Part shown: positions 6,467-45,720 of the stretch, in pieces
Layout of the letters: each line of letters opens with the position of its first letter
How positions within the stretch are numbered: the stretch's first letter is position 1
Source: Pseudomonadales bacterium
GTDB taxonomy: Bacteria; Pseudomonadota; Gammaproteobacteria; Pseudomonadales; UBA7239
DNA: 64,000 nucleotides
Reading direction: 5' to 3'
Assembly: GCA_028280345.1 (NCBI GenBank)
Contig: JANQLY010000021.1
Location: 62,001-126,000, forward strand
Program-made: the position numbers and the translations under genes
Notes under the pieces: model-generated
The model's input: only the letters and a program-made list of their open reading frames with translations
What the model was told of the DNA's origin: nothing
Databases searched by the model: none

Positions 6467-8500
6467 ATGATCAGGCTTATTTCGCTTATTGCCCTTTTCG
6501 TTCTATCACTATCTGCCATCGCCACACCGGTTGGTCCACTGAATTATCAAGGACGCTTGCTGGATAATCAGGGTGTGCCGGTAACCGGCTCCTACAATTT
6601 TGTGATTCGTATCTATGATGATGTAAGTGCAGGTACATTGCAGTACCAGGAGACGATCAATGGGGTGAATGTGAATGATGGCGTATATTCGTTCAGAATA
6701 GGTACGGCCCCGGTACCTGATGTAGGGACATGGGATTTGAATTTATGGCAAAGCAATTTGAATGATCTGTTTTTAGAGGTTGAAGTGGATTCTGAAGTGC
6801 TGGCGCCACGTTATGAGTTAACCTCTTCCCCTCATGCATTTACAGCTACACTGGCGCTGTCGGCGGAGTCATTGGGTGCCAAAACGGCAGCTGAGTTTGA
6901 CAACATTCTGGAAGGTATTTGTATTACCAGTCGCGGCAAATGGCTCGATCTGGTGAATACCTGCCTGGGTGTTGGTGCTACTGTAACCGGCGAAACCCTT
7001 GCGACCATGTTAAGCAATTCCCTCGATACAGATTTTACCGATCTGGATTTAAGTAAGGCGGATGTTACCAGTAGTAGTTTTGATGGCGTGAACTTTTCCG
7101 GCACAGTGTTTAAAAATACCCAGGTGTCGATGGCGGGCTTTACCAATACCAATTTAACTGGTGCGGTTCTGGATGGTGTAACGAGTAATAACGCCTTGCC
7201 AAACACGGCCATTAATTTAACTAATGCCACGCTGACCAATATGAGTTTGCAGGGTTGGGATTTATCCAATGCTGACATTACCGGGTTGTCGGCGGCCAAT
7301 CTGACAGCATGTCCGTCCCCCTCGGGGCTTCCCAACGGTTCCCTGTTACCGGCCAACTGGGAGTGCCGTGAGATGAGAGCTTCAAGCGGGCTGTATTTTC
7401 TTGCTGGCCCGGGCGTTAATCTGTCAGCCATTTCTGCGGCGGCAGTACAAGAGTTTGGCGTTAACTATCTGGAGTTTGACCCCGATGTATTTTTGGGACT
7501 TGATTTAAATGGTGCCAATTTCTCCGGTCTGGATGTGCGTCAGGACTTTGCGCTTGCAGATTTGAGTAACGCGGATTTTCGCTCAGCTTCCATTGCCCGG
7601 CGCAATGATTTTACCGGCGCCAATTTAACCAATGCTGATTTCACTGGTGCAACGATTGACCGTGTAAGCCTATTGGGAGCGACGCTAACCAATACGATTT
7701 TTGCACAAACTCGCCTGACGACAGTGGAGTTTGATGATATTGACGGTATTTCCTTTGCCGGCGCGACGATTATTAATGCATCGTTTCAGGCAATTAGTAA
7801 CACCAGTTTTGACTATGCCTTTGTCGAGGGTTTGCTGTTTGCCGGTTGGTGGACAGGTACGATTACCTTTACCAACGCCGAAGTGTTTAATGGTATTAAC
7901 TTGCCGGATTTGGGTGTTTATGATGCCATGACAGGGTGGGAGCCGATTGGAAATAATGCAACAGTTAACTTTGAAGGAACAAAGTTTAATGCGTTTCCGG
8001 ACCGTGGTGTAATTACTGCGAATATTGGCCAGGGCATTACCTATAATTTTAACAATGTAACCTTTAAGTACGTGCAGTTTGAGCCGCGCCCTGATTGTAA
8101 TTGTGCTTCCCAGAATGAGCATTGGCTGTATGGGCCTGATGCGCAGCACAGAGCGTTTTCGATTACCAACTCAACATTTGACAATGTGTTGTTTCGCTAT
8201 GAATCCAGCCCAGGTATGTATCAACAAACAGGTCTGTTTGGCAGCCTGGCGTCCGCAACTCACCCCTTGTGGCAGGATAATACCTTTAAAGTCTATGAGG
8301 ATGGTTTTAGTAGTGGAGTTGGCCCCTATGCGCCAGAAAACTATTTTGAAAATAATGTGTTTGAGTTATACGTTCAGCCCAGCATGGGGGTTCGTGTTAC
8401 CGGCTATTCAAGTTTGACATCAACCAATGGCATCAATCAGTTTGACCCCTGCGATGCCGGCGATCCGGAAAACAGTAATAGCTGTGTGAATCTGTATTAG
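6467..8500 (+). CDS. Secreted pentapeptide-repeat protein (paralog 1 of 3)
   Basis: 677 residues, ATG after GAGGAAA. Layout: signal peptide (about 1-19, ending SAIA); a beta domain starting TPVGPLNYQGRLLDNQG and ending PRYELTSSPHAFTAT, a module seen at the N-terminus of many secreted bacterial repeat and fibre-like proteins; a two-Cys segment (EGICITSRGKWLDLVNTCLG); pentapeptide repeats of A(D/N)LXX type from about 185; a linker with TACPSPS and ANWECREM followed by LAGPGVNLSA; a second pentapeptide block from about 340. The C-terminal 150 residues lose the repeat and contain DCNCASQNEH. Paralogs lie at 40873 and 43960. Surface or extracellular location is inferred; function unknown. Confidence 0.85.
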   Translation: MIRLISLIALFVLSLSAIATPVGPLNYQGRLLDNQGVPVTGSYNFVIRIYDDVSAGTLQYQETINGVNVNDGVYSFRIGTAPVPDVGTWDLNLWQSNLNDLFLEVEVDSEVLAPRYELTSSPHAFTATLALSAESLGAKTAAEFDNILEGICITSRGKWLDLVNTCLGVGATVTGETLATMLSNSLDTDFTDLDLSKADVTSSSFDGVNFSGTVFKNTQVSMAGFTNTNLTGAVLDGVTSNNALPNTAINLTNATLTNMSLQGWDLSNADITGLSAANLTACPSPSGLPNGSLLPANWECREMRASSGLYFLAGPGVNLSAISAAAVQEFGVNYLEFDPDVFLGLDLNGANFSGLDVRQDFALADLSNADFRSASIARRNDFTGANLTNADFTGATIDRVSLLGATLTNTIFAQTRLTTVEFDDIDGISFAGATIINASFQAISNTSFDYAFVEGLLFAGWWTGTITFTNAEVFNGINLPDLGVYDAMTGWEPIGNNATVNFEGTKFNAFPDRGVITANIGQGITYNFNNVTFKYVQFEPRPDCNCASQNEHWLYGPDAQHRAFSITNSTFDNVLFRYESSPGMYQQTGLFGSLASATHPLWQDNTFKVYEDGFSSGVGPYAPENYFENNVFELYVQPSMGVRVTGYSSLTSTNGINQFDPCDAGDPENSNSCVNLY

Positions 8501-30859: not shown

Positions 30860-32110
30860 ATGAATAAAGTACGACAAATACTATGGGAAAGTGAACTGAC
30901 GGGCATCAGTGAAAAACATCGCTGGTTGGTCAACGGTTTTGTGGTGCTGTTTATTGGCATTATCAGCTATCACTTTATTGCTGCGCTGCACGTGATGGTT
31001 TTTCTCGGTCCGGGTTTAGGGGAAAAGGAATCCTATGAATTCGCCAATGTTCTGATATTTGACCGTTTGGCATTAGATGCTCCACTTGTTGTATGGCTTC
31101 TTGCCGCTATGCTGACCATCGTTATCTTTTTTCGCCTCTATGTGATGCTGGTAAGCTACTTTGGCTATGAAAAGGCTTTTGGGGAAAAGTTTCCCGCACA
31201 TATTATTCCAGTGTTCATGCTTATCAATACCGTTGGCGTTATGTGTATTCCGCTGTGTTTTGCGCTATTTGGTGCAATAGCTATTGCACTAGGTTATGAC
31301 TTTGAAAGTGGCTGGGCATTTCTGGAAAATACTGTTTCTGCTTTACATCAGTGGGTAATGACAAATATACCTACCTTGGTTGAAATGCCTGCTGTGCTTG
31401 CCGTGTTTTCCGTATACATGGTGGCAGGCTTTGCACACTACTGGTTTCATCGGCTTGGGCACGAGTTCCGTGCACTGTGGTTGCTGTTTCACCGTCATCA
31501 CCACATGTCACCTAATTTAACGCAGATGTCGACAGCGGTGGTTTTCTTTGCGTTTCCACTGTTTATCCTGTTTTTTATTCCCTATACCCTGGTTTTCGCC
31601 AGTATTAGTAAACTGTTTTATGCCGAGCCGCTATATGTAGAGATATTTATTTTTAACCTGTTTGTGATGATGTCGGAAATATTTGGTCACTCCGATGTGT
31701 TTTATAACAAGGTGAAAAATAACAAGTTGGTGAGATGGGCCGGAATGTTTTTTGGTAATGGTATTTACCATTACATGCACCACTCTGCGAGGGACGAAGA
31801 TGCGGTGATTATTGGCAGCTTCAACAAGGGCAAGGATCGCAAGGTCAATATGATCAATATGGGAGGCGGTTTCTTTTTTTTCTGGGATAAAGTATTTGGC
31901 ACCTTTAAAACCGTTAGCGAAGAGAAGCCGGACGTAGGGCTGATTGGCAGGCCTGAATTACATATGAACCCGGTCAGGCTGGCGTTCTCCGGTATTGCGC
32001 AATTGATCTATGAATTGCGCATGAATAAAGATTTTCTCACCAGGCTGAAAATCCTGTTTGGCCCCTCGGAATATAATCCGCCGATCAGCAAGGACTACGC
32101 AATCAAATAA
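30860..32110 (+). CDS. Sterol-desaturase/fatty-acid-hydroxylase superfamily membrane protein
   Basis: 416 residues, about six membrane helices. Di-iron histidine clusters are visible: HYWFHRLGH, FHRHHHMSPN and YHYMHHSARDED. This superfamily hydroxylates or desaturates sterols, fatty acids and carotenoids at the membrane. The N-terminal part (1-180) is longer than minimal members. Followed by a sterol-methyltransferase-like gene on the same strand (103 bases). Confidence 0.88.
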   Translation: MNKVRQILWESELTGISEKHRWLVNGFVVLFIGIISYHFIAALHVMVFLGPGLGEKESYEFANVLIFDRLALDAPLVVWLLAAMLTIVIFFRLYVMLVSYFGYEKAFGEKFPAHIIPVFMLINTVGVMCIPLCFALFGAIAIALGYDFESGWAFLENTVSALHQWVMTNIPTLVEMPAVLAVFSVYMVAGFAHYWFHRLGHEFRALWLLFHRHHHMSPNLTQMSTAVVFFAFPLFILFFIPYTLVFASISKLFYAEPLYVEIFIFNLFVMMSEIFGHSDVFYNKVKNNKLVRWAGMFFGNGIYHYMHHSARDEDAVIIGSFNKGKDRKVNMINMGGGFFFFWDKVFGTFKTVSEEKPDVGLIGRPELHMNPVRLAFSGIAQLIYELRMNKDFLTRLKILFGPSEYNPPISKDYAIK

Positions 32111-32213
32111 GCATGGGCTGTGCTTAATTCTCCTGCATCCCTTCAATTCTGTTAGTATGCACTGCAATCGTGGTCTGACCTTGAAGTCGAAATAATTGCA
32201 AAGGTAAAGTTTT

Positions 32214-33272
32214 ATGGCATCAATATTTAGTTATATGAAAAGGGAAAATAGAGATATCAGTGCGAACATGTACCGAATGAAAACATCATTTACTGGTATC
32301 AAGCGTTTGGTCACGTTGCCGGAAGAAGATAAGCAGGGCTGTATTGATGCCTATAAGTTTTTTCAAAATATGCAGGCCGGTGAGGAAACAACCACAGAAG
32401 AAGAAACGAAAGCTGTCGCCGCTTACTATAAGGTTTTAAATAATATGCTGTCGGTATTTGATCTGGAGAAGCTCTATATACCACCGCAGCTCGATGAAAA
32501 TGAAGGTTTGTATGGTAACCAGTTGTTATGTGAGCAGGCTGTTTTTAAGGAGCTAAATCTGCAAGATCCGGAGAATTCACATCTGCTCGACATGGGGTGT
32601 GGTCGAGGTCGGATTGCCCACTATATGGCTACCCTGAGTGGTGGGCAGGTTTCGGGCTATAACATTGATCCTAACCAGATAGAGAATGCTATCGAGTGGG
32701 CGGATCGTTGTAATATGAGTGATCGACTTCACTTTAAAGTCGGTAATCATCATGAACCGCTGGATTATGACTCGGAAACCTTTGATGGCTGTTTCTCTAT
32801 TCAGGCGGTATGGCCATTCTTCAAGAAAGAAGAACTCTACGACCACGCACAGGAAATGTACCGTGTTTTAAAGCCAGGGGCACGTTACTCTTGCTCGGAG
32901 TATCTATTGTCTCCCTATTTTGACTGGAATAACGAAGAGCACGTAGCTTTGCACAAATCCTACCTTCCGACCCTGGCTGCAACACAATCGATGTACCCCG
33001 CTGATGTCTGTGCTGCACTTGAGAAAGCAGGGTTTAAAATTATCCTTTCCGAACCTTCCAAAAGTGAGGCCTGGCCAATCTGCGAACAAAAGCGCGACAT
33101 GATTAAACTGGCTCGCAAGGCGATCAGGGGGCTTGAAAAAGTTCGGCTCATGCCGCCCTGGGTAGAAGAGTCACTGGATTTATTACAAAAGGGCGGTGAA
33201 TCATGGACAGAGGCAGAAAAAGCTAAAATTGCCGATCTGAACTGGCGTATTGTTGCAGAGAAGCCTGTCTGA
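32214..33272 (+). CDS. SAM-dependent methyltransferase, sterol/lipid C-methyltransferase-like
   Basis: 352 residues. SAM-binding motif I LLDMGCGRGRIAHY (about 122-135), then GYNIDPNQIENAIEWA, and later ALYDHAQEMYRVLKPGARY region. The 'GYNIDPNQI' form and downstream SCSEYLLSPYF resemble sterol 24-C-methyltransferases and related lipid C-methyltransferases rather than cyclopropane synthases. It follows the desaturase-like gene, hinting at a shared isoprenoid or lipid substrate, but this is inferred. Confidence 0.75.
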   Translation: MASIFSYMKRENRDISANMYRMKTSFTGIKRLVTLPEEDKQGCIDAYKFFQNMQAGEETTTEEETKAVAAYYKVLNNMLSVFDLEKLYIPPQLDENEGLYGNQLLCEQAVFKELNLQDPENSHLLDMGCGRGRIAHYMATLSGGQVSGYNIDPNQIENAIEWADRCNMSDRLHFKVGNHHEPLDYDSETFDGCFSIQAVWPFFKKEELYDHAQEMYRVLKPGARYSCSEYLLSPYFDWNNEEHVALHKSYLPTLAATQSMYPADVCAALEKAGFKIILSEPSKSEAWPICEQKRDMIKLARKAIRGLEKVRLMPPWVEESLDLLQKGGESWTEAEKAKIADLNWRIVAEKPV

Positions 33273-34874: not shown

Positions 34875-36341
34875 ATGAGTGTGTCAGGCTTTTTCAAAAA
34901 AGGGGTTCCGGCATTGATTGCCGTTGCTGTGCTGGTGATGTTTGTCTGGGTCTATAGTGCAAAGCGCTTGCCGGGCGAAATACCCCCTACCAAACCGGAT
35001 GACTCCGCGACTCTTTCCTACCCTTTAGCCCTCTATGAGGATGATCCCTTGCTGGTATTTCCGGCAGCGGAAGGTGTGCACCTGGACATGGATAGTGATA
35101 CCTGGTTTCTCGAGGGGGTACTGGAAGGCAAGGAGAGCGGCCATCAGTATGGCTTTATCGTAGTATTTTTTTCCAGTCGCATCTTTGGCCTGTTCCCGCT
35201 GGATTTTTATTCGCTGGCATTTTATGACCTTGAAAATGGTGACTATGGAACCTATTCATCGTTCTCACGTGTCCATGCAGCCAATGGTTATCTCAACCTG
35301 AGTACCGCATTTGAAGATACCGATACCTGGTGGAAAACAAAGTTGGATGAAAACGGGTATCTCGTGCCATTTCACTATGAAGTGGATTTGTTGGGCACGG
35401 ACCACACAGGTCGCGATATGCGGCTGATATCGGAAGTGATTGCTACAAACCCGCCGGTGCCGGTGGGGGCTGATACGTTCAAGGGTATTATTGAGATTTT
35501 CCAGCAGCCGGGTACCTATTCCTACTATCAGACCGGTATTGAATTTGATGGGCGTTTAACCTGGGGCGAAATTGATGAACCGGTCACAGGGCATATAGGC
35601 CATATTGATCGGCAGATCTTTCCAAAGTTTGTCGGTGTTAACAGTGGTCTTGATGGCAGGAAGTTTTCCCATGAGTGGCGCACCTACTTTTTTGATAACG
35701 GTGTCGATTTTAGTAGCTGGCGCATATTTGATCGCACTAATTTCAATGAAGTTGTCTCGTACAATGGCGCAACAGTTTACGAGAAGGGTGTAGGCAGTCG
35801 TTATGCCGCAGATATCGAATATGAAGTACTTACCTACCGCCGTGTTGAGAACCACCCGGTTAAACCGTTGGCACCACCGCGGGCGGGCGTACTGTATTTT
35901 GCGGATAAACACCGGCTGGTCTCAGAGACATTAAATTTACGGCTGGAAACGATACCACTTTCGCAGCAGACGCCGATGTTGGCGTTTCCTGTGGAGTATG
36001 TGCATGGGCCGGTGCGTCTGAAAGGTGAAATGAATGGCGAGCCATTTACCGGCATTGGTTCGTTTGAAAGAACGTTTGCGATGTACCGCGACTTTGAGCT
36101 GGCGCGTGTACTACTCGATAGTCTTAAGGGTTTGCCTGAGTCTGCGTTTGCTTCTGGTGCTGGTGATAGAGGTCGATTAATAGATCAGGCGGTTGAGCTT
36201 GAAAAAGCCATTATTGACAAGCAGCGCGATAAAGCAGAACAATTAATAGCAAAAGAACTGGATGTGTCAGTAGAAAAACTGGCGCAACCCTATAAGCAGA
36301 CAATTCAGCAAATTCTGGTTGATATTAATAACAGTCTTTAG
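34875..36341 (+). CDS. CrtC/AttH-type lipocalin-like hydratase family protein
   Basis: 488 residues. N-terminal membrane anchor (about 13-29). Then a two-lipocalin domain: SDTWFLEGVLEGKESGHQYGF is the typical N-terminal strand of the AttH/CrtC (PF07143) family, with GHIDRQIFPKF and SSWRIFDRTNF in the middle and LRLETIPLSQQTPMLAFPVEYVHGPVRLKGEMNGEPFTGIGSFE at the end, only parts of which I quote as motif: VEYVHGPVRLKGEMNGEPF. CrtC hydrates carotenoids; AttH is of unknown role. A 60-residue helical tail follows. Lipid-type substrate inferred. Confidence 0.72.
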   Translation: MSVSGFFKKGVPALIAVAVLVMFVWVYSAKRLPGEIPPTKPDDSATLSYPLALYEDDPLLVFPAAEGVHLDMDSDTWFLEGVLEGKESGHQYGFIVVFFSSRIFGLFPLDFYSLAFYDLENGDYGTYSSFSRVHAANGYLNLSTAFEDTDTWWKTKLDENGYLVPFHYEVDLLGTDHTGRDMRLISEVIATNPPVPVGADTFKGIIEIFQQPGTYSYYQTGIEFDGRLTWGEIDEPVTGHIGHIDRQIFPKFVGVNSGLDGRKFSHEWRTYFFDNGVDFSSWRIFDRTNFNEVVSYNGATVYEKGVGSRYAADIEYEVLTYRRVENHPVKPLAPPRAGVLYFADKHRLVSETLNLRLETIPLSQQTPMLAFPVEYVHGPVRLKGEMNGEPFTGIGSFERTFAMYRDFELARVLLDSLKGLPESAFASGAGDRGRLIDQAVELEKAIIDKQRDKAEQLIAKELDVSVEKLAQPYKQTIQQILVDINNSL

Positions 36342-36436: not shown

Positions 36437-37240
36437 CTATGCGGGCTTCGCATTTTTCATATAACTGTTTTGCCAGTCATTAACTAACAACTGGTAACCG
36501 ATATAACCGAAGATCAGTGGGAAGAAAAAGTATTGATACTGTGTCCATACCAGGGCAAGCAGGGTGTCAGCAATACCGCCGGGCATATTGGCAAAATCCG
36601 CAAACACTTCGGCAAAGGTGAATATGAATGTGGATGCCACTGGCTCACCACAACCAATTACGGCGACGAGATAACGGTACGGCGAACGCTTTTTGTTCAA
36701 GTGAAAGAAATATAAGGTTGTGAACAGGTTGACGAACGCATAAATTTCCACGGTGTAGAACGTTGGATCGTGGTTGACTGTGCGTAAATCCACAGCGCCA
36801 AATGACGCGAGAATCCACCAGTACATATGGAAAATGTTCTCGCGCATATAACCGGTGTAGGCAACAACATCGTCAAGCGTATTCAGATCGTTGAAAACAA
36901 ACGGTGAGAAAATTACCCAGGGCATCTCCCACAGCACATTGGTAATCGCATAGGACAACATCCAGACGACGAGGCAATCATGGTAAAGATCCATTTTCGA
37001 TTGGCCGCTGCCTTTTTGTAAAAACCAGATAATGATCCAGGCATTGAGCCAGATACTGATACCGTAGAGCGCGAGACGGGCACTCATCACAAAGTCCAGC
37101 GCACCAAAGAAAAACATAATGGCGCAGATGCCGACACCGCCCCACCAGAACAGAGTCCAGAGTAGAAAGCGTTTTTTGGCACCATCGGAGATAGCGCGTG
37201 CAACGGGTTCGCCCGTCATGGGCAGAGCTGTAGTGTTCAT
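36437..37240 (-). CDS. EXPERA/emopamil-binding-like membrane protein
   Basis: 267 residues, about 6-7 membrane helices. The second half reads WWILASFGAVDLRTVNHDP, FYTVEIYAFVN, KKRSPYRYLVAVIGCGEP and FTFAEVFADF. This follows the pattern of the EXPERA/EBP family (GDSRY...D...E...SPYR...G...TE), the sterol delta8-delta7 isomerase group. Family assignment is from pattern only, so moderate confidence. A 23-bp palindrome shared with the tetR/SDR promoter lies 30 bases upstream of the start, so TetR control is likely. Confidence 0.5.
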   Translation of the reverse strand: MNTTALPMTGEPVARAISDGAKKRFLLWTLFWWGGVGICAIMFFFGALDFVMSARLALYGISIWLNAWIIIWFLQKGSGQSKMDLYHDCLVVWMLSYAITNVLWEMPWVIFSPFVFNDLNTLDDVVAYTGYMRENIFHMYWWILASFGAVDLRTVNHDPTFYTVEIYAFVNLFTTLYFFHLNKKRSPYRYLVAVIGCGEPVASTFIFTFAEVFADFANMPGGIADTLLALVWTQYQYFFFPLIFGYIGYQLLVNDWQNSYMKNAKPA

Positions 37241-37269
37241 AGAATTTCGCCTTGTATTTTATCCATCAT

Positions 37270-37292
37270 TAATGAAACAGGGTGTAACATTA
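37270..37292. promoter_or_regulatory. Palindromic operator upstream of the EXPERA-like gene
   Basis: TAATG, 2 bases, ACA, 3 bases, TGT, 2 bases, CATTA: fully symmetric at the 16 fixed positions. The same pattern occurs at 38039-38061. Candidate operator of the TetR protein encoded between them. Confidence 0.72.
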
Positions 37293-37363
37293 ACAGCTTT
37301 GCCGGGCCAAGTCTATCTCTGCGTAAGCCCTGTAAATCAAGGGCTGTAGCCGGAATTGTCGAG

Positions 37364-38014
37364 TTAAAGGTTCAAGGCGTTTTTGACCAGCTGCCAGGCG
37401 GCCTCTCTTGCTGCCTGTTTATTAGCCGGGGTCAGCCCCTTGCGAATGGTGTCGTGGGCAATCCACTGGTTGGCGTTGAGCAGGGATTTGAGAAAAATCG
37501 CATCTACCTTTTTGTTGCCCGACCCTGATACAGGGGGCAGGTTTTTTTGCAGGGCTTTGACGATCTGGTCAAACGCAGCGTTGACCACCGCAAAGGCCGG
37601 AGAATTCGGGTCATTGGCTTCGCGAAATACCAGCTCGGCGTAGTCACCCTGAGCAAAAATGGCTTCGTACATCTCGTCGAGGGTTTGCTTGAGCTGCTCT
37701 GGAGAAATAGCAGGTTGGGCCAGATTGGCCTGCATAAATAGCTCAACCGGTGCAAACACACTGACCTGATAAATATGCTGCAGCAGAGCATCCATCCCGT
37801 CAAAGCTGCGATAAAACGTAGAGCGCGAGACATCGGCCCGGTCGCAGATTTGCATAATGGATACCGAGCGCACACCGTGTTCAAGGAATAATGCAACCGC
37901 GGCATTCACTATCGTGCGGGCTTGCTCCTCGGGGCCTGGCCGAGGTTTGCGGCGGCCATCTGCATTTTTGATAACCGTGAGTGAAGGGGGCTTGGATGAA
38001 GGCGGTCTGGACAT
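37364..38014 (-). CDS. TetR-family regulator
   Basis: 216 residues from ATG 38014. N-terminus is proline/serine/basic (MSRPPSSKPPSL...RRKPRPGPEEQ); helix-turn-helix about 40-85 (TIVNAAVALFLEHGVRSVSI, CDRADVSRSTFYRSFDG); C-terminal ligand domain. Divergent from an SDR gene with a palindrome between. The reading frame is open further to 38059, but the extra 15 codons are the palindromic operator itself, so they are not translated. Confidence 0.85.
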   Translation of the reverse strand: MSRPPSSKPPSLTVIKNADGRRKPRPGPEEQARTIVNAAVALFLEHGVRSVSIMQICDRADVSRSTFYRSFDGMDALLQHIYQVSVFAPVELFMQANLAQPAISPEQLKQTLDEMYEAIFAQGDYAELVFREANDPNSPAFAVVNAAFDQIVKALQKNLPPVSGSGNKKVDAIFLKSLLNANQWIAHDTIRKGLTPANKQAAREAAWQLVKNALNL

Positions 38015-38038
38015 GGGACAAGCATACCGGAAAATCGC

Positions 38039-38061
38039 TAATGTAACACCTTGTTTCATTA
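38039..38061. promoter_or_regulatory. Palindromic operator in the tetR/SDR divergent promoter
   Basis: TAATG-TA-ACA-CCT-TGT-TT-CATTA, the same 16 symmetric positions as the site at 37270-37292. It sits 25 bases before the tetR start and 44 bases before the SDR start, fitting autoregulation and co-regulation. Confidence 0.75.
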
Positions 38062-38104
38062 ATTAAATCGCGTTAACGTGTCGTTTTTTTGTGGGCGTGT
38101 ACCT

Positions 38105-38869
38105 ATGAGCAAAGTGGCTGTTATTACCGGGGCGAGCGAGGGACTTGGCAGGGTGTTTGCGCAGCAGCTGGCGCAAGCGGGTTATCACACAATCAATATT
38201 GCCCGTAATCAGGCGCGCCTTGAAGAGCTGGTTGCCGAGCTCGGCGCACAACATCGCTATCATGTGGCTGATCTGGCTCAGGATGAGGGTGTGGAATCCT
38301 GTATCAAGTTGCTGGCGGAAAGCCATGTCGATCTGTTTGTAAACAATGCTGGCTTCAGTCGCTTTGGTATTTTTCGTGAAGCGGAGATTGAAAACGAACT
38401 GAAGATTCTGCAGGTGAACTGCCATGCGGTGTTGCGCCTATCCCATGCGTTTTTGCAGCAGGCACGGCAAGGTGATGCATTGATTAACTTATCATCAATC
38501 ACAGACATGCTGATTACGCCGATTCAGCCAACCTACTGTGCCACCAAGTCGTTTATCGCCTCGTTTTCCCGTTCACTGTGGTTCCAGGAAAGAAAACGCG
38601 GGGTGTATGTGCAGGCTCTGCTACCAGGTATTACAAAAACACAGTTTATTGAGCGTTCCAGTGACCTCGAAGGTTTCAAACTTTCATTACTCAATGCGAT
38701 CTCGCACAGCCCGGAAGCGGTAGTGTCTGCTTCGTTAAGTGCGGCAAAGCGGCGCAGCGGGCCAGTTGTGATTCCGGGCTTAAGCAATAAGCTGATTGCG
38801 TTGTTGTTGCGTCTGTTGCCAAATAAATGGATTGTCTGGATGCTGGGCAAAGTCGGAGACCTGGCGTAA
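38105..38869 (+). CDS. Short-chain dehydrogenase, 3-ketoacyl/17-beta-HSD-type
   Basis: 254 residues from ATG 38105 (frame open from 38078). GASEGLGRVFAQQLAQAG (cofactor), NNAGFSRFG, NLSSITD, and the catalytic YCATKSF. The tail (LLRLLPNKWIVWMLGKVGDLA) is amphipathic and suggests membrane association, as in the DltE/17-beta-HSD12-like group acting on acyl or steroid ketones. Divergent from tetR with the shared operator upstream. Confidence 0.88.
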   Translation: MSKVAVITGASEGLGRVFAQQLAQAGYHTINIARNQARLEELVAELGAQHRYHVADLAQDEGVESCIKLLAESHVDLFVNNAGFSRFGIFREAEIENELKILQVNCHAVLRLSHAFLQQARQGDALINLSSITDMLITPIQPTYCATKSFIASFSRSLWFQERKRGVYVQALLPGITKTQFIERSSDLEGFKLSLLNAISHSPEAVVSASLSAAKRRSGPVVIPGLSNKLIALLLRLLPNKWIVWMLGKVGDLA

Positions 38870-38947: not shown

Positions 38948-39898
38948 ATGGCATCATCAGATCATATCAATACACTGCCTCCCGCGCCGCAACGTCCGGT
39001 GCCTGCGTTGCAGTGCTACCTCACCTATATAGTTAGTATCGCTGTGGGCATTGTCAGTTGGGTCTGGTTGGCCAACACCATGCCGGAATATGATCCGTTT
39101 ATGCAGGGGCTGATCGTTACAACGATCTGCACCTTTGTTGTGTGGATTTTCTCCATGATCAATGACAACTCGTCTCTCTATGACCCTTACTGGGTTATAG
39201 CGCCGCCGTTTTTTGTACTGGGTATTATTGCCAGTGCAGATGCCGGTCTGGCTGACTGGCACATACGGGACACATTGATTTTGTTGTGTTTTGTGGTGTG
39301 GGCAACACGCTACCATGTGTTGCTGTTTTGGGAAGGCTGGACAACCGGGTTGCATATCGAGGATTGGCGCTACGAAGGTATGCGCAGTGCACCAGTGCCG
39401 TACTGGTTAAACTCCCTCATTGGTATGCACTATTTTCCCACCTATCTCGTGTATTTTGCGTTTGCTCCGGCAGCGCTGGTATTAATGACGGCATCGACGG
39501 AGCAGCCAGCGTTAAATATCTGGGACGCGCTGGGTGTGATGGGTGCAGTTGGTGCTGCGTCCATTCAATGGTTTGCGGATAAGCAGAACAAGGAATACCG
39601 ACAATCACAGGACTATCGTGATGGCGGTGCGATTCAAACCGGTCTGTGGGCATGGTCGCGGCACCCGAACTATTTTGGTGAGGTGCTGTTCTGGGTGTCG
39701 ATGATTCCGTTTGCGGTGGCGGCAGGTTTGTATGAAGATCACAAGCTGTTGGTGTTGAGTGGCCCGATTGCAATGGCAGTATTCTTCCGTTTTAGCTCAT
39801 GGCTTATGGATGTGCGCTCGTTGGAAAGGCGCCCGGGTTATGAAAAGGTCATGACCGAAGTCAGTGCGATGGTGCCATGGTTTCCTAAAAAACGTTAG
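38948..39898 (+). CDS. DUF1295 membrane reductase (steroid 5-alpha-reductase-like)
   Basis: 316 residues from ATG 38948 (AAGGAAAGAGAC upstream); the longer start is TTG 38930. About seven helices. The conserved C-terminal signature is present: GLWAWSRHPNYFGEVLFW, then RRPGYEKVM. DUF1295 is related to steroid 5-alpha reductases, sterol reductases and isoprenylcysteine methyltransferases. The QSQDYRDGGAIQTG loop precedes. It follows the SDR gene by 78 bases on the same strand, so a two-step reduction of one lipid is conceivable. Confidence 0.85.
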   Translation: MASSDHINTLPPAPQRPVPALQCYLTYIVSIAVGIVSWVWLANTMPEYDPFMQGLIVTTICTFVVWIFSMINDNSSLYDPYWVIAPPFFVLGIIASADAGLADWHIRDTLILLCFVVWATRYHVLLFWEGWTTGLHIEDWRYEGMRSAPVPYWLNSLIGMHYFPTYLVYFAFAPAALVLMTASTEQPALNIWDALGVMGAVGAASIQWFADKQNKEYRQSQDYRDGGAIQTGLWAWSRHPNYFGEVLFWVSMIPFAVAAGLYEDHKLLVLSGPIAMAVFFRFSSWLMDVRSLERRPGYEKVMTEVSAMVPWFPKKR

Positions 39899-40872: not shown

Positions 40873-43089
40873 ATGATGAAAAAATATGTTTTATTGCTTA
40901 TCCTGCTGGTGTTTCCTTTGTGGGTGTCTGCGACACCGGTTGGCCCAATGAGTTATCAGGGCAGGTTGTTGAACAATCAGGGAGTGCCTGTTACTGGCTC
41001 CTATAATTTCACTGTGCGCATCTATGATGACCTGGTTTCCGGTACGCTGGTCTATGAGGAGGTACACAGTAATGTCACGGTCAATGATGGCGTGTATTCG
41101 TTTCGCGTAGGTACCCAGACGCCACAAACCGGTAGCTGGGATCTGAATTTGTGGCAAAACAATATTAATGACTTGTATCTGGAGTTACAGGTTGGAGGCG
41201 AAACATTAAGCCCGCGCACTGAATTAACCTCTGCACCGCATGCGTTTACTGCAACGCTGGCTTTAGGTGCAGAGTCTTTGGGTGGAAGAAGTGCGGCGGA
41301 GTACGACAATATTCTCGAAGGACTGTGTGTTGCCAATAATGGTAAATGGCTGGCATTGGCAGAAGTCTGTGCCGGTGGTGCTGTGGATTTGAGTGGTGAG
41401 TTGTGGTCCGACCTTGATCCCGATAATAACTACAGTGGGGTGGTGTTTAGTAATGCTAACCTCTCTAATGTAGATTTTACCGGGGTGAATTTTAGCGGTG
41501 CGACATTCACCAATGTGGATATAACAAATGCCAACTTTACCAATGCTGTATTTACTGATGCAGTTTGGGATGGTGTGACATTCTCTACTGCGCCGAATAT
41601 TACAGGAGCAAACTTGACCAATGCTACCTTGCTCAATATGGATTTAACTGATCTTGATCTTTCGACGGCCTCTGCTGCAAGTGGTTTGGCGGCGGCCGAG
41701 CTTTCCGCCTGCCCTTCATCTGCCAGCAGATATCCGAATCTGGATTGGGGGTGTGTGACGTATACCAATGATGGAGCACAACAGGCTCTGATTGGCCCGT
41801 ATGTGAATCTGTCAGCCAATTCGCCAGCGATTGTGCAGAGAAAAGGGCTGTCCTATTTGAGTATTAACAACTTCGATGCGGGCTTGCTAACGAATGCTGA
41901 TTTTAATAGTGCGGCAGTGAGTGCAACGTTTACCGGCAGAAATTTGACCTCGGCAAACTTTAGCAGCAGTCAGTTGGATGATTCTGGCTTTTCCAGCAGC
42001 ACAGTTTCTCTGGCGGATTTCAGTAATGCAGAAATCAAGTGGACGGAGTTCTCCCAGCTGGAAGCACAAAATTCAACATTTACCAATGTGACGGTGGAAA
42101 ATGCCAGTTTTGTGAGCCCTTCATTTAATGCGCCGGGTTTTGAAGATAGTCAGTTCCTGTTTGTTCTGTTTGACAAGATCAATAACGGCTATGGCTTGAG
42201 TGACGGTCAGCCGTCGAATATGGATTTTGATAATGCCAAGCTCTATGAAGTGGTGTTTCTGGACTCTGTGTTGCATGGTGCAACTTTTTCCAATGCAGTT
42301 TTAACTAATGTAGATTTTACGCGCATTGCTAATGATAGTTCAAATGGCAACTTTAAATTGGATGGGGCAAAGCTACAGGACGTAACCTTTGACACGTTAA
42401 CTAGCGGAAATCCAATAATGGATTTGACGAATGCGAAATTACAGGATGTGGAGTTTGAGGGCTGGAATTTTTACTTTGGTTCACTGATAAGCGGAGCGGA
42501 ACTTGATGGGGTGAGTTTTAAGAATCTGATTATGTATGCTGATTTGTCGATTACCTCGACTGATGTGACCTATCCGGCTTCAGCGAAGCCGTTGGTATTC
42601 GAGAATGTGAACTTTTGGGGTAAGTTTGATTTAAGTAATGTCAGTGTGCCTAAAGGATCTGTATTTGACGGTATTACTTCATTGGGCAGCTCTTCCATAA
42701 CAGTGATTGGTGATACGGTTACTCTGGATGAGGTAAGCTTCAGGGAAGCGTATTTGGCTTATGTGACGTTTACGAACAATACGATGTACGGCGTTGATTT
42801 TACGGGAAGTACTTTTCAGGATGGAGACTTTAGTGGCTCCCTGATTGTCGGAGCAAACTTTACCAATGCCAAGCTTTGGGATGCTGATTTCTCAAATACG
42901 GATTTGAGATCCAACTATGACTATATTTTTAGTTTTAATGGCGCTGACTTGAGTGGTGTAGATTTTACTGGTGCCACCTTTGGTGGGCCTTTGCCATTTG
43001 ATTGGGATGGCGCCACTTGCCCGGACGGTTTTGTCGTTATTGATAGCGCTACTGAGAGTTGCCAGGATGGTCATTTGGTGGCTCCCTGA
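40873..43089 (+). CDS. Secreted pentapeptide-repeat protein (paralog 2 of 3)
   Basis: 738 residues. Signal peptide MMKKYVLLLILLVFPLWVSA, then the same beta domain as paralog 1 (TPVGPMSYQGRLLNNQG to PRTELTSAPHAFTATL), the LCVANNGKWLALAEVC Cys pair, first pentapeptide block (NLSNVDFTGVNFSGATFTNV), a SACPSSAS...DWGC linker and IGPYVNLSA, and a long second block to near the end, finishing DGATCPDGFVVID...CQDG. The repeats form a right-handed quadrilateral beta-helix. The last block is longer than in the paralogs. Outer surface or secreted; no catalytic motif. Confidence 0.87.
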   Translation: MMKKYVLLLILLVFPLWVSATPVGPMSYQGRLLNNQGVPVTGSYNFTVRIYDDLVSGTLVYEEVHSNVTVNDGVYSFRVGTQTPQTGSWDLNLWQNNINDLYLELQVGGETLSPRTELTSAPHAFTATLALGAESLGGRSAAEYDNILEGLCVANNGKWLALAEVCAGGAVDLSGELWSDLDPDNNYSGVVFSNANLSNVDFTGVNFSGATFTNVDITNANFTNAVFTDAVWDGVTFSTAPNITGANLTNATLLNMDLTDLDLSTASAASGLAAAELSACPSSASRYPNLDWGCVTYTNDGAQQALIGPYVNLSANSPAIVQRKGLSYLSINNFDAGLLTNADFNSAAVSATFTGRNLTSANFSSSQLDDSGFSSSTVSLADFSNAEIKWTEFSQLEAQNSTFTNVTVENASFVSPSFNAPGFEDSQFLFVLFDKINNGYGLSDGQPSNMDFDNAKLYEVVFLDSVLHGATFSNAVLTNVDFTRIANDSSNGNFKLDGAKLQDVTFDTLTSGNPIMDLTNAKLQDVEFEGWNFYFGSLISGAELDGVSFKNLIMYADLSITSTDVTYPASAKPLVFENVNFWGKFDLSNVSVPKGSVFDGITSLGSSSITVIGDTVTLDEVSFREAYLAYVTFTNNTMYGVDFTGSTFQDGDFSGSLIVGANFTNAKLWDADFSNTDLRSNYDYIFSFNGADLSGVDFTGATFGGPLPFDWDGATCPDGFVVIDSATESCQDGHLVAP

Positions 43090-43139: not shown

Positions 43140-43742
43140 TTACTGTAGCAGGTAGGCGCTAATGATATTCGTCAATTCTTCAATAACTGCCTGTTTCTCA
43201 AACTTCTCTTCAGGCATCACCACTATTCTGAATTGAAAGCCCAGTACAATGTTGGTCAGGGTATAGGTGATAAGCCGTGGATCTCTGCCTGAAAAGGTTA
43301 TCTTTGTGTTATGGGAAAAGTCGCTGGCGATATTGCCGATCTTTTTTTTGCTTTCTCTAAGGTCTATCTGGTGCAGTTCATCGGGGAAATGTGTAAATAC
43401 CAGTTTGATAATGTCGCGGTGATTGTGAGCAAACTCTACACCGGCAGTGACCAGTGCTCGTAGGATGGAGCGGGCATCAGTGTCTTTCTGTTGCGCATTT
43501 TCAGCAACCTGTTCCAGAGCGTTATCAAGCTCTCTATCAAGATAGGCAATAAATACCGCTTCCTTGCAGGAAAAATAATCATAAAAAGTGCCTATGCTTA
43601 CATCAGCTTCAAGCGCAATTTTGGCAGCCGTTGATTTTTTGAAGCCGAACTCCCTGAGGATGCCTGGGCAGGCATCCAGTATGGCGTGAAACTTTTGCCG
43701 GGAGCGCTGCTGTTTGGGGTGGTTGATAACAATAGATTTCAT
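43140..43742 (-). CDS. TetR-family regulator between two pentapeptide genes
   Basis: 200 residues. Helix-turn-helix near 15-60 (FGFKKSTAAKIALEADVSIGTFYDYFSCKEAVFIAYL), C-terminal ligand domain ending ISAYLLQ. Convergent with paralog 2 and divergent from paralog 3, so it could regulate the latter. It contributes no obvious palindrome matching the 23-bp operators of the other TetR. Confidence 0.88.
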   Translation of the reverse strand: MKSIVINHPKQQRSRQKFHAILDACPGILREFGFKKSTAAKIALEADVSIGTFYDYFSCKEAVFIAYLDRELDNALEQVAENAQQKDTDARSILRALVTAGVEFAHNHRDIIKLVFTHFPDELHQIDLRESKKKIGNIASDFSHNTKITFSGRDPRLITYTLTNIVLGFQFRIVVMPEEKFEKQAVIEELTNIISAYLLQ

Positions 43743-43959: not shown

Positions 43960-45720
43960 ATGATGAAAAAAATTGCTCTGCTGTTTGCCCTGATGATATT
44001 TCCCCTGCTGTTATCTGCGACACCGGTTGGTCCAATGAGTTATCAGGGCAGATTGCTGAACGATCAGGGAGTGCCTGTCACAGGTTCCTATAACTTTACT
44101 GTGCGCATTTATGATGATCCGGTTGCCGGTGCGCTGGTTTATGAAGAAGTACACAGTAATGTCACGGTCAATGATGGCGTGTATTCATTTCGTGTAGGCA
44201 CCCAGACACCGCAAACCGGCAGCTGGGATCTGGATTTGTGGCAAAACAACATTAATGATTTGTATCTGGAGTTACATGTTGGAGCCGAAACATTAAGTCC
44301 TCGTACTGAGTTAACTTCCTCTCCTCATGCCTTTACGTCAACGTTGGCTTTGGCGGCTGATACGCTCGGTGGCAAAACAGCGGCGGAGTACGACAATATC
44401 CTTGAGGGTGTATGTGTGGCAAGCAAGGGAAAGTGGCTGGATTTGGTAGATCAATGCCTGGGTGCCAGTTCTTCTTTTCCGGGGCCTTCCGTCTCCAGCT
44501 GGAGTACATTGTCCAGTGACAGCGATTTTTCCAATCTGGATCTAAGCAATGCAGATATCAGTGGTATTTCATTTATGGGTGCAGATTTATCAGGTAGTAC
44601 CTTCTACCAGACCACTTATAGAGTATCCGGCATTGCACATGCGGACATTGGCAATACTTACTGGGATGGGGCTGTCGCCACAGATAGTTCGGCATATTTA
44701 ATTCAAACCAGTCAATTTAATATTAAAGGCGCAAGCTTTAAAAATATGGACATGTCAAAATGGCATTTTCAACTAAGTGGCGGAGGATCCGCACATCAAG
44801 GTATGTCTGCTGCTTACCTGAGTGCCTGCCCGGTGTTAACGCCAATCCACGGTTGGGAGTGTCGCTTGATGCGTAGTGGTGGCAGTGAATATTTTCTTGT
44901 TGGTACCGGGGCGAACCTTTCCAATACTTCGGCGCTCAGCATAGCGGGCTTTAATGGCAGTGTTCTCGATATTGATAATGATGCACTGGATAATATTTAT
45001 CTTGGTGGTGCATCATTTGCAGGTAGTACAATTGTTGCCAATCTCTCTGGAAGTAGTTTGTATCAGGCAGATATGAGTTATTCGGTGATTAGAAATGCCC
45101 ACTTTACATCTGGAACTTCTTTCACGGGCACTAATTTGACGGGTGCGCATATTGAGCAATCGATATTTGAAACCGGCTCATCCATCGGTGCGAACTTTCA
45201 GGGCGCAAGACTCAATAATGTTCAGTTTCTCGATGATGTTGTGCTGGCTGATTTTACCAATGCGTATTTAAGAGAGGTGTATTTTGATTTTTTGTCAGTG
45301 TGTGATTTCACATCGGCAACGTTGGAAGATGTTCATATTGATAGCATGCGTAGTACCAGTGCGTCTCCTTACTATACGACGTTTGATAAAACCCGTATTT
45401 ATGGCTTATTTCAGGTGGATGATCACTACGGAGGTTATCCGAATTTTGATCATTTGATCTATCAGGATCTTGAATTTATCGGGGCCACATTGTCAGGTAA
45501 TTTCTCGGGTGTCACATTTACCAATTCTGTCAGTTTCAAGCATGTTGTGCTGGATGATCTGAATTTAAATAATGCTGTGATTCCTTTGGTGGATACAACC
45601 GCACCGCATAATGATTTGTCTACTGTGACCTGGGGGGCAGTGAGATGCCCGGATGGCACTGTGGTAAGTGGTGGTACCGGAGCCAATTCCTGCGATTATC
45701 TATTACGTATGACACCATAG
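43960..45720 (+). CDS. Secreted pentapeptide-repeat protein (paralog 3 of 3)
   Basis: 586 residues. Signal peptide and beta domain are almost identical to paralog 2 for the first 130 or so residues (TPVGPMSYQGRLLNDQG), then CVASKGKWLDLVDQCLG as in paralog 1. First pentapeptide block (NLDLSNADISGISFMGADL), linker SACPVLTP...GWECRLM with LVGTGANLSN, second block (NLTGAHIEQSIF, NFQGARLNNVQFL). Ends VTWGAVRCPDGTVV...CDYLL. It is the shortest paralog; the shared 5' end and different 3' end suggest duplication followed by divergence or recombination. Confidence 0.87.
   Translation: MMKKIALLFALMIFPLLLSATPVGPMSYQGRLLNDQGVPVTGSYNFTVRIYDDPVAGALVYEEVHSNVTVNDGVYSFRVGTQTPQTGSWDLDLWQNNINDLYLELHVGAETLSPRTELTSSPHAFTSTLALAADTLGGKTAAEYDNILEGVCVASKGKWLDLVDQCLGASSSFPGPSVSSWSTLSSDSDFSNLDLSNADISGISFMGADLSGSTFYQTTYRVSGIAHADIGNTYWDGAVATDSSAYLIQTSQFNIKGASFKNMDMSKWHFQLSGGGSAHQGMSAAYLSACPVLTPIHGWECRLMRSGGSEYFLVGTGANLSNTSALSIAGFNGSVLDIDNDALDNIYLGGASFAGSTIVANLSGSSLYQADMSYSVIRNAHFTSGTSFTGTNLTGAHIEQSIFETGSSIGANFQGARLNNVQFLDDVVLADFTNAYLREVYFDFLSVCDFTSATLEDVHIDSMRSTSASPYYTTFDKTRIYGLFQVDDHYGGYPNFDHLIYQDLEFIGATLSGNFSGVTFTNSVSFKHVVLDDLNLNNAVIPLVDTTAPHNDLSTVTWGAVRCPDGTVVSGGTGANSCDYLLRMTP

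Follow-up and report, generated by a model that had tools for sequence, protein, structure and literature searches.

Two palindromes flanking a tetR gene as the likely operators of a small TetR regulon with a short-chain dehydrogenase and an EXPERA-like membrane protein in a Pseudomonadales bacterium

The window, the whole stretch of 64,000 nucleotides that was analyzed, is from a Pseudomonadales bacterium, and coordinates refer to it unless another locus is named. The following features were placed at the locus.

36437..37240, (-) strand: gene for an EXPERA-like membrane protein, 267 aa, called as an ORF; predicted target.
37270-37292, (-) strand: predicted operator copy 1, TAATGAAACAGGGTGTAACATTA, upstream of the EXPERA-like gene.
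37364..38014, (-) strand: gene for a TetR-family regulator, 216 aa (PF00440, E 2.2e-12, 47 bits vs. a cut-off of 24).
38015..38104, no strand: divergent promoter region of tetR and SDR, 90 bp, from the sequence.
38039-38061, (+) strand: predicted operator copy 2, TAATGTAACACCTTGTTTCATTA, within the tetR/SDR promoter region.
38105..38869, (+) strand: gene for a short-chain dehydrogenase/reductase (SDR), 254 aa (PF00106, E 4.3e-35); predicted target.
38957..39898, (+) strand: gene for a DUF1295 protein (PF06966).

The start of tetR is likely at 38014. Its longest ORF would begin at 38059, inside palindrome copy 2, as an ATG in the tetR frame lies at 38057-38059, and the alignment of orthologues favours the later start. 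For the SDR, the ATG at 38105 is the likely start rather than the mechanical GTG at 38078. The regulator carries an N-terminal TetR HTH domain above the Pfam gathering score (PF00440). The DUF1295 gene is possibly co-transcribed with the SDR gene; no DUF1295 match was found in the 41 loci searched (E <= 1e-6), and the gene is, on sequence comparison, placed outside the conserved module. Other genes of the window were recorded as well. Convergent to the EXPERA-like gene, a 488-aa protein (34875-36341) has a weak match to the CrtC lipocalin domain (23.1 bits, cut-off 22.5), and a fatty-acid-hydroxylase-family protein stands beside a SAM methyltransferase at 30860-33272, ~4 kb from the regulon and with no operator there. 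Three paralogues (6467-8500, 40873-43089, 43960-45720) have a near-identical N-terminal region, reading ATPVGP(M/L)(S/N)YQGRLL...NQGVPVTGSYNF, and divergent C-terminal parts; two of them flank a second TetR gene at 43140-43742.

The pattern TAATG-N2-ACA-N3-TGT-N2-CATTA occurs twice in the window at 0 mismatches, and the genome (3,994,921 bases) holds the same two copies. The preliminary description had reported both palindromes, and each is exact at 37270-37292 and 38039-38061, with 16/16 fixed positions symmetric; across the full 23 bp the two sites are 8/11 and 9/11 palindromic. Its placement of one copy before the EXPERA-like gene and of the other in the promoter shared by tetR and SDR agrees with the gene map: copy 1 lies between the tetR stop and the EXPERA-like gene, ~30 bp ahead of the latter and with its centre ~40 nt from the start, and the centre of copy 2 is ~54 nt from the SDR start. 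When reverse-complemented, copy 1 shares 21/23 positions with copy 2, the best 23-mer pair in shuffled DNA being 19/23 (200 dinucleotide shuffles of 37000-38300, 1.3 kb), and the better-matching orientation, taken relative to the metabolic gene that each copy precedes, is the same for both. The absence of a third copy in the window, also claimed there, held at <=2 mismatches, with a single 3-mismatch match at 70-92. The genome-wide scan it had proposed returned the same two exact copies and nothing else credible in 3.99 Mb. The next-best match, one 2-mismatch copy, falls inside a long ORF, which we take to be smc, and was rejected as a third operator. Genome matches at <=3 mismatches were fewer for the real pattern (15) than for a reversed control (34), so that only the two exact copies stand out and there is no evidence for more sites.

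The label 'EXPERA-like' for the 267-aa protein is backed by its predicted fold, though no sequence profile finds the protein: searches against Pfam and NCBIfam returned no match (0 Pfam families at E up to 10 and at 0.001), and the family had 0 sequence matches in the PDB at E up to 10. An AlphaFold2 model built from 29 sequences, that of this genome included (mean pLDDT 85.8), shows the predicted helical fold of the EXPERA/EBP superfamily. In a Foldseek search against the PDB the top two rows were human EBP (E 0.019 and 0.097, prob 1.00). VIA-align ranks 1-6 were EBP (Z 12.2, 11.7) and the sigma-2 receptor (Z 10.1 to 9.6), the next, unrelated row being at 6.5; Z below ~13 can reflect a common arrangement for helical bundles, and despite this caveat EBP and the sigma-2 receptor stand clear of the other fold matches for the modelled structure. 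Identity over the fold match is 10-13%, without a sequence-level match. Human EBP is described as a sterol delta8-delta7 isomerase grouped with the sigma-2 receptor/TMEM97 in the EXPERA superfamily (PMC4263179, PMC6549186), with a catalytic His76-Glu80-Glu122 alongside Trp196 (PMC6549186). Mapped by spacing and not by superposition, EBP Glu80, Asp108, Arg110 and Glu122 (positions as given in PMC4263179 and PMC6549186) correspond to the invariant Glu105, Asp151, Arg153 and Glu165 of the family. The spacing of these four residues is a likeness beside that in predicted fold, whereas the catalytic His76 maps by spacing to the invariant Asn101, and Trp196 to Tyr237.

EXPERA-like orthologues were found in 8/293 genomes of the order (this one included), plus 29 named loci. 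G095, G173 and five other loci have, where the EXPERA-like gene would stand, a gene of a second branch, 'EXP2'. The EXP2 proteins of G095 and G173 are 17-19% identical to the protein described here, D+14 is again Glu in them and N-x-x-W is present. The branch has the glutamate and D-x-R motifs in common with the EXPERA-like branch, and, by spacing, Gln at the His76 position. Searched alone against the PDB, EXP2 gave only N-acetyltransferase matches (E ~0.5).

The TetR orthologues are sparsely distributed. They were detected in 7/293 genomes of the order (own genome included), 9/140 in the family of G106 and 2/21 in the family of G095 (centre genome included in both), and across the class in at least 1/369 genomes, the own genome being the one among the matches listed; a search of named genomes with the single protein confirmed no relatives. 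An EXPERA-like or EXP2 gene is adjacent in 16 of the 22 TetR loci, and an SDR orthologue stands beside the regulator in 11 of the 22, the own locus counted in both. The divergent tetR-SDR order recurs in G057 and G165, with which the own TetR clusters on the tree (84/86 support) and with which it also has a 3-bp spacer in common. At L067 and L068 the TetR gene lies after the EXPERA-like gene and is codirectional with it, so that both may be governed by a single operator. The neighbourhood differs at four TetR loci: an operator-controlled P450 at L074, an FAD oxidoreductase at L115, no recognised target at L114, and at L111 (3585-7827) a glycyl radical enzyme and activase, which adjoin the TetR orthologue and operator sites and were not expected as a target of this regulator.

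For the conservation of the operator, a symmetric matrix, built each time without the sites of the locus being scored, was run over 35 regions (250 nt plus 30) upstream of EXPERA-like, EXP2 or SDR genes, using 400 shuffles per region. Of the 29 EXPERA-like loci 23 were scored; L043, L059 and L065 were omitted as they lie on the same contigs as G165, G016 and G106, and L045, L060 and L070 as they had no upstream DNA. All 15 regions in which a site was expected, from 12 genomes with a TetR orthologue (own included), had one at <=2/400 shuffles, a count for which the matrix seed sites were picked by eye from the same loci and which leaves out one further region of the TetR-bearing genomes, G106_EXP, inside an SDR-EXPERA operon. 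That region had no site (177/400); its gene comes after the SDR in what looks like a single operon. EXPERA-like genes of genomes without a detected TetR orthologue lacked a site in 16/17 regions (15 from one search, plus G016 and G157 from the order-wide search). The sole exception, L053, has a weak site (1/400), which may be a -10-like TGTAATATGA common to L061 and nearly to L051. L048, in neither the TetR-bearing nor the TetR-less group, has a strong site (<=2/400 shuffles). At L057 no site was found (179/400), and the TetR orthologue of that genome lies elsewhere, next to a P450 with an operator. In a held-out test with the matrix fixed on earlier sites, each of the 9 later-found TetR loci (L108-L116) had a site at <=1/500 shuffles. 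Several loci carry two sites in tandem, and no operator accompanies the weak TetR match in G311 (2.1e-13). Whole genomes were also searched with a 24-bp consensus (<=3 mismatches). In G303 and G313-G316, 6/6 matches fell at the TetR/target locus, with 0 for the reversed control; in G150, G057, G165 and G312 the counts (3, 2, 3, 9) were not clearly above those of the reversed control (5, 2, 2, 11). G057 and G165 have tetR-SDR and the EXPERA-like gene on different contigs, both with a site. The own sites are off consensus, with GAAACA/GTAACA halves and a 3-bp spacer, and their scores (10.6 and 16.9 bits) are among the lowest of the true sites.

The preliminary description had asked for conserved sites upstream of orthologues and named loss of the motif there as what would count against it. 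The motif was not lost: a diverged form is kept wherever a TetR orthologue was found (15/15 regions, then 9/9 held-out loci). A palindromic operator at its own and target promoters that is conserved with the orthologues also places the regulator in the TetR family. The existence of just two copies in the genome could be read as a chance or mobile repeat unrelated to regulation, a reading whose probability we put close to nil, as related sites recur, beyond what shuffles give, in the promoters of these genes across unrelated phyla.

In the recognition helix VSR-X-T(F/Y)Y, residue X varies among P, D, H and S. P-type TetRs (9 TetRs) have T at half-site base 7 in 18/18 half-sites, and D-type TetRs (9 TetRs) have G there in 16/18, counting one best site per TetR, with G057 and G165 (shared site) counted once and with two H-type proteins and the own S-type protein excluded. 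On the tree the D-type proteins are a single clade, sister to the H-type, so that this amounts to one evolutionary switch and not to 18 independent observations, and Fisher values overstate the independence. The own TetR combines S at position X with off-consensus half-sites. Helix residue and half-site base change together, and this covariation bears on whether the palindromes might be bound by another regulator, the neighbouring TetR being a bystander that travels with the cluster. Such a regulator could be sought in the second TetR gene at 43140-43742, and binding of the own sites by the own TetR is a prediction; yet the presence of the operator tracks the TetR orthologue and not the EXPERA gene, the site remains beside TetR even at loci with a P450 or a glycyl radical enzyme as the target, and helix and half-site vary together, which leaves the bystander reading quite improbable.

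We therefore consider it very likely, as the preliminary description had proposed, that the TetR protein encoded at 37364-38014 binds both palindromes and that tetR itself, the SDR gene and the EXPERA-like gene form a small local regulon under its control, the operator being conserved with the TetR orthologue and mostly absent without it. TetR would bind 37270-37292 and 38039-38061 as a dimer (or a pair of dimers). The bound protein would control tetR, the divergent SDR gene and the EXPERA-like gene, with a regulon confined to the locus, and since the sites overlap or abut promoters it most likely blocks RNA polymerase. By analogy with the behaviour of the family, a small hydrophobic ligand would release it. 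A sigma-70 search at the own sites gave no strong promoter (1 match vs. 0.9 expected), so the promoter layout there is putative. In L044, L108, L109, L111 and L116 a TTGACA -35-like hexamer, read by eye, directly precedes the operator, a repressor position that would block RNA polymerase. Some TetR proteins activate, and TetR might likewise be an activator or a dual regulator at one of the sites, given that the centres of the scored true sites are mostly 35-62 nt upstream of start codons and that the promoters are putative. With sites of several orthologous loci just after the -35-like hexamer, i.e. in the spacer, activation is unlikely, and repression is the reading carried forward.

The SDR and the EXPERA-fold protein probably share one lipophilic substrate, which might resemble a steroid or a terpenoid. 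A lipophilic ligand is hinted at by the EXPERA fold and the SDR, by the P450 and FAD enzymes at other loci and by the spacing of the EdcR operator; that it is steroid- or terpenoid-like is a guess, and the glycyl radical enzyme at L111 is at odds with the hint. EdcR of Caenibius tardaugens is an estradiol-responsive TetR repressor of the edc estrogen-degradation operons (PMC8700777), and its proposed operator TnnCnnTACnAnTnGTAnnGnnA (TAC-N5-GTA) matches the 3-bp-spacer sites of G057/G165 in its 23-bp spacing. The own sites have this spacing in common with the EdcR operator, in a comparison of operators and not of proteins, whereas their half-sites read AACA/TTACA. In the PDB the TetR profile had its best sequence match in Mce3R, a TetR repressor (PDB 9b7y; E 6.5e-14), and this match covers the DNA-binding domain only (profile positions 23-80).

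The genomic context was searched for steroid and sterol genes. A sterol biosynthesis context was rejected: no squalene/oxidosqualene cyclase family match was detected in the own genome, which argues against sterol synthesis there. Evidence for steroid degradation in this genome is weak. A scan of ten neighbouring genes between 29912 and 43742 recognised none for steroid degradation, and degradation by the HsaC route was set aside, as the two extradiol dioxygenases elsewhere in the genome score below the curated cut-offs tested (both below that of BphC, and the one tested with the HsaC model below that as well). One dioxygenase directly follows a P450 at L094 (8171-10370 of C8 of this genome); this P450 shares 31% identity with the one under an operator at L074 and has no operator upstream. 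The other, at L095, is found with acyl-CoA dehydrogenase-like, SDR-like and HMG-CoA-synthase-like genes.

Local autoregulators of catabolic or efflux genes are a general kind of TetR-family system, and as such a switch the present one is ordinary. It resembles them in its TetR_N domain, the divergent tetR-target layout and a palindromic operator in the promoter region, and differs in its targets, an EXPERA-fold membrane protein and an SDR, and in having two sites at one locus. Among the papers listed by literature searches on EXPERA, EBP or steroid-linked TetR, none describes a bacterial EXPERA regulon in its title or abstract opening. A broader proposal is offered tentatively, at less than even confidence: the sparse, two-branch EXPERA-fold family and the SDR might work together as an isomerase/oxidoreductase pair on a lipophilic substrate, controlled across Pseudomonadota, Desulfobacterota and Myxococcota by one conserved TetR switch, and in this pair the EXPERA protein would be a bacterial cousin of the sterol isomerase with an altered proton donor (Asn/Gln for His) and TetR a sensor of a steroid- or terpenoid-like compound.

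The locus offers an operator-repressor pair that is ready for use and whose target set is small and testable, and it points to an unannotated bacterial family of EXPERA-fold proteins (EXP, EXP2), which Pfam does not see and which most deserves to be followed up. The conserved TetR switch gives a way towards the ligand and hence the substrate. If the ligand is steroid-like, the locus would add a sensor and an unexpected bacterial relative of the sterol isomerase.
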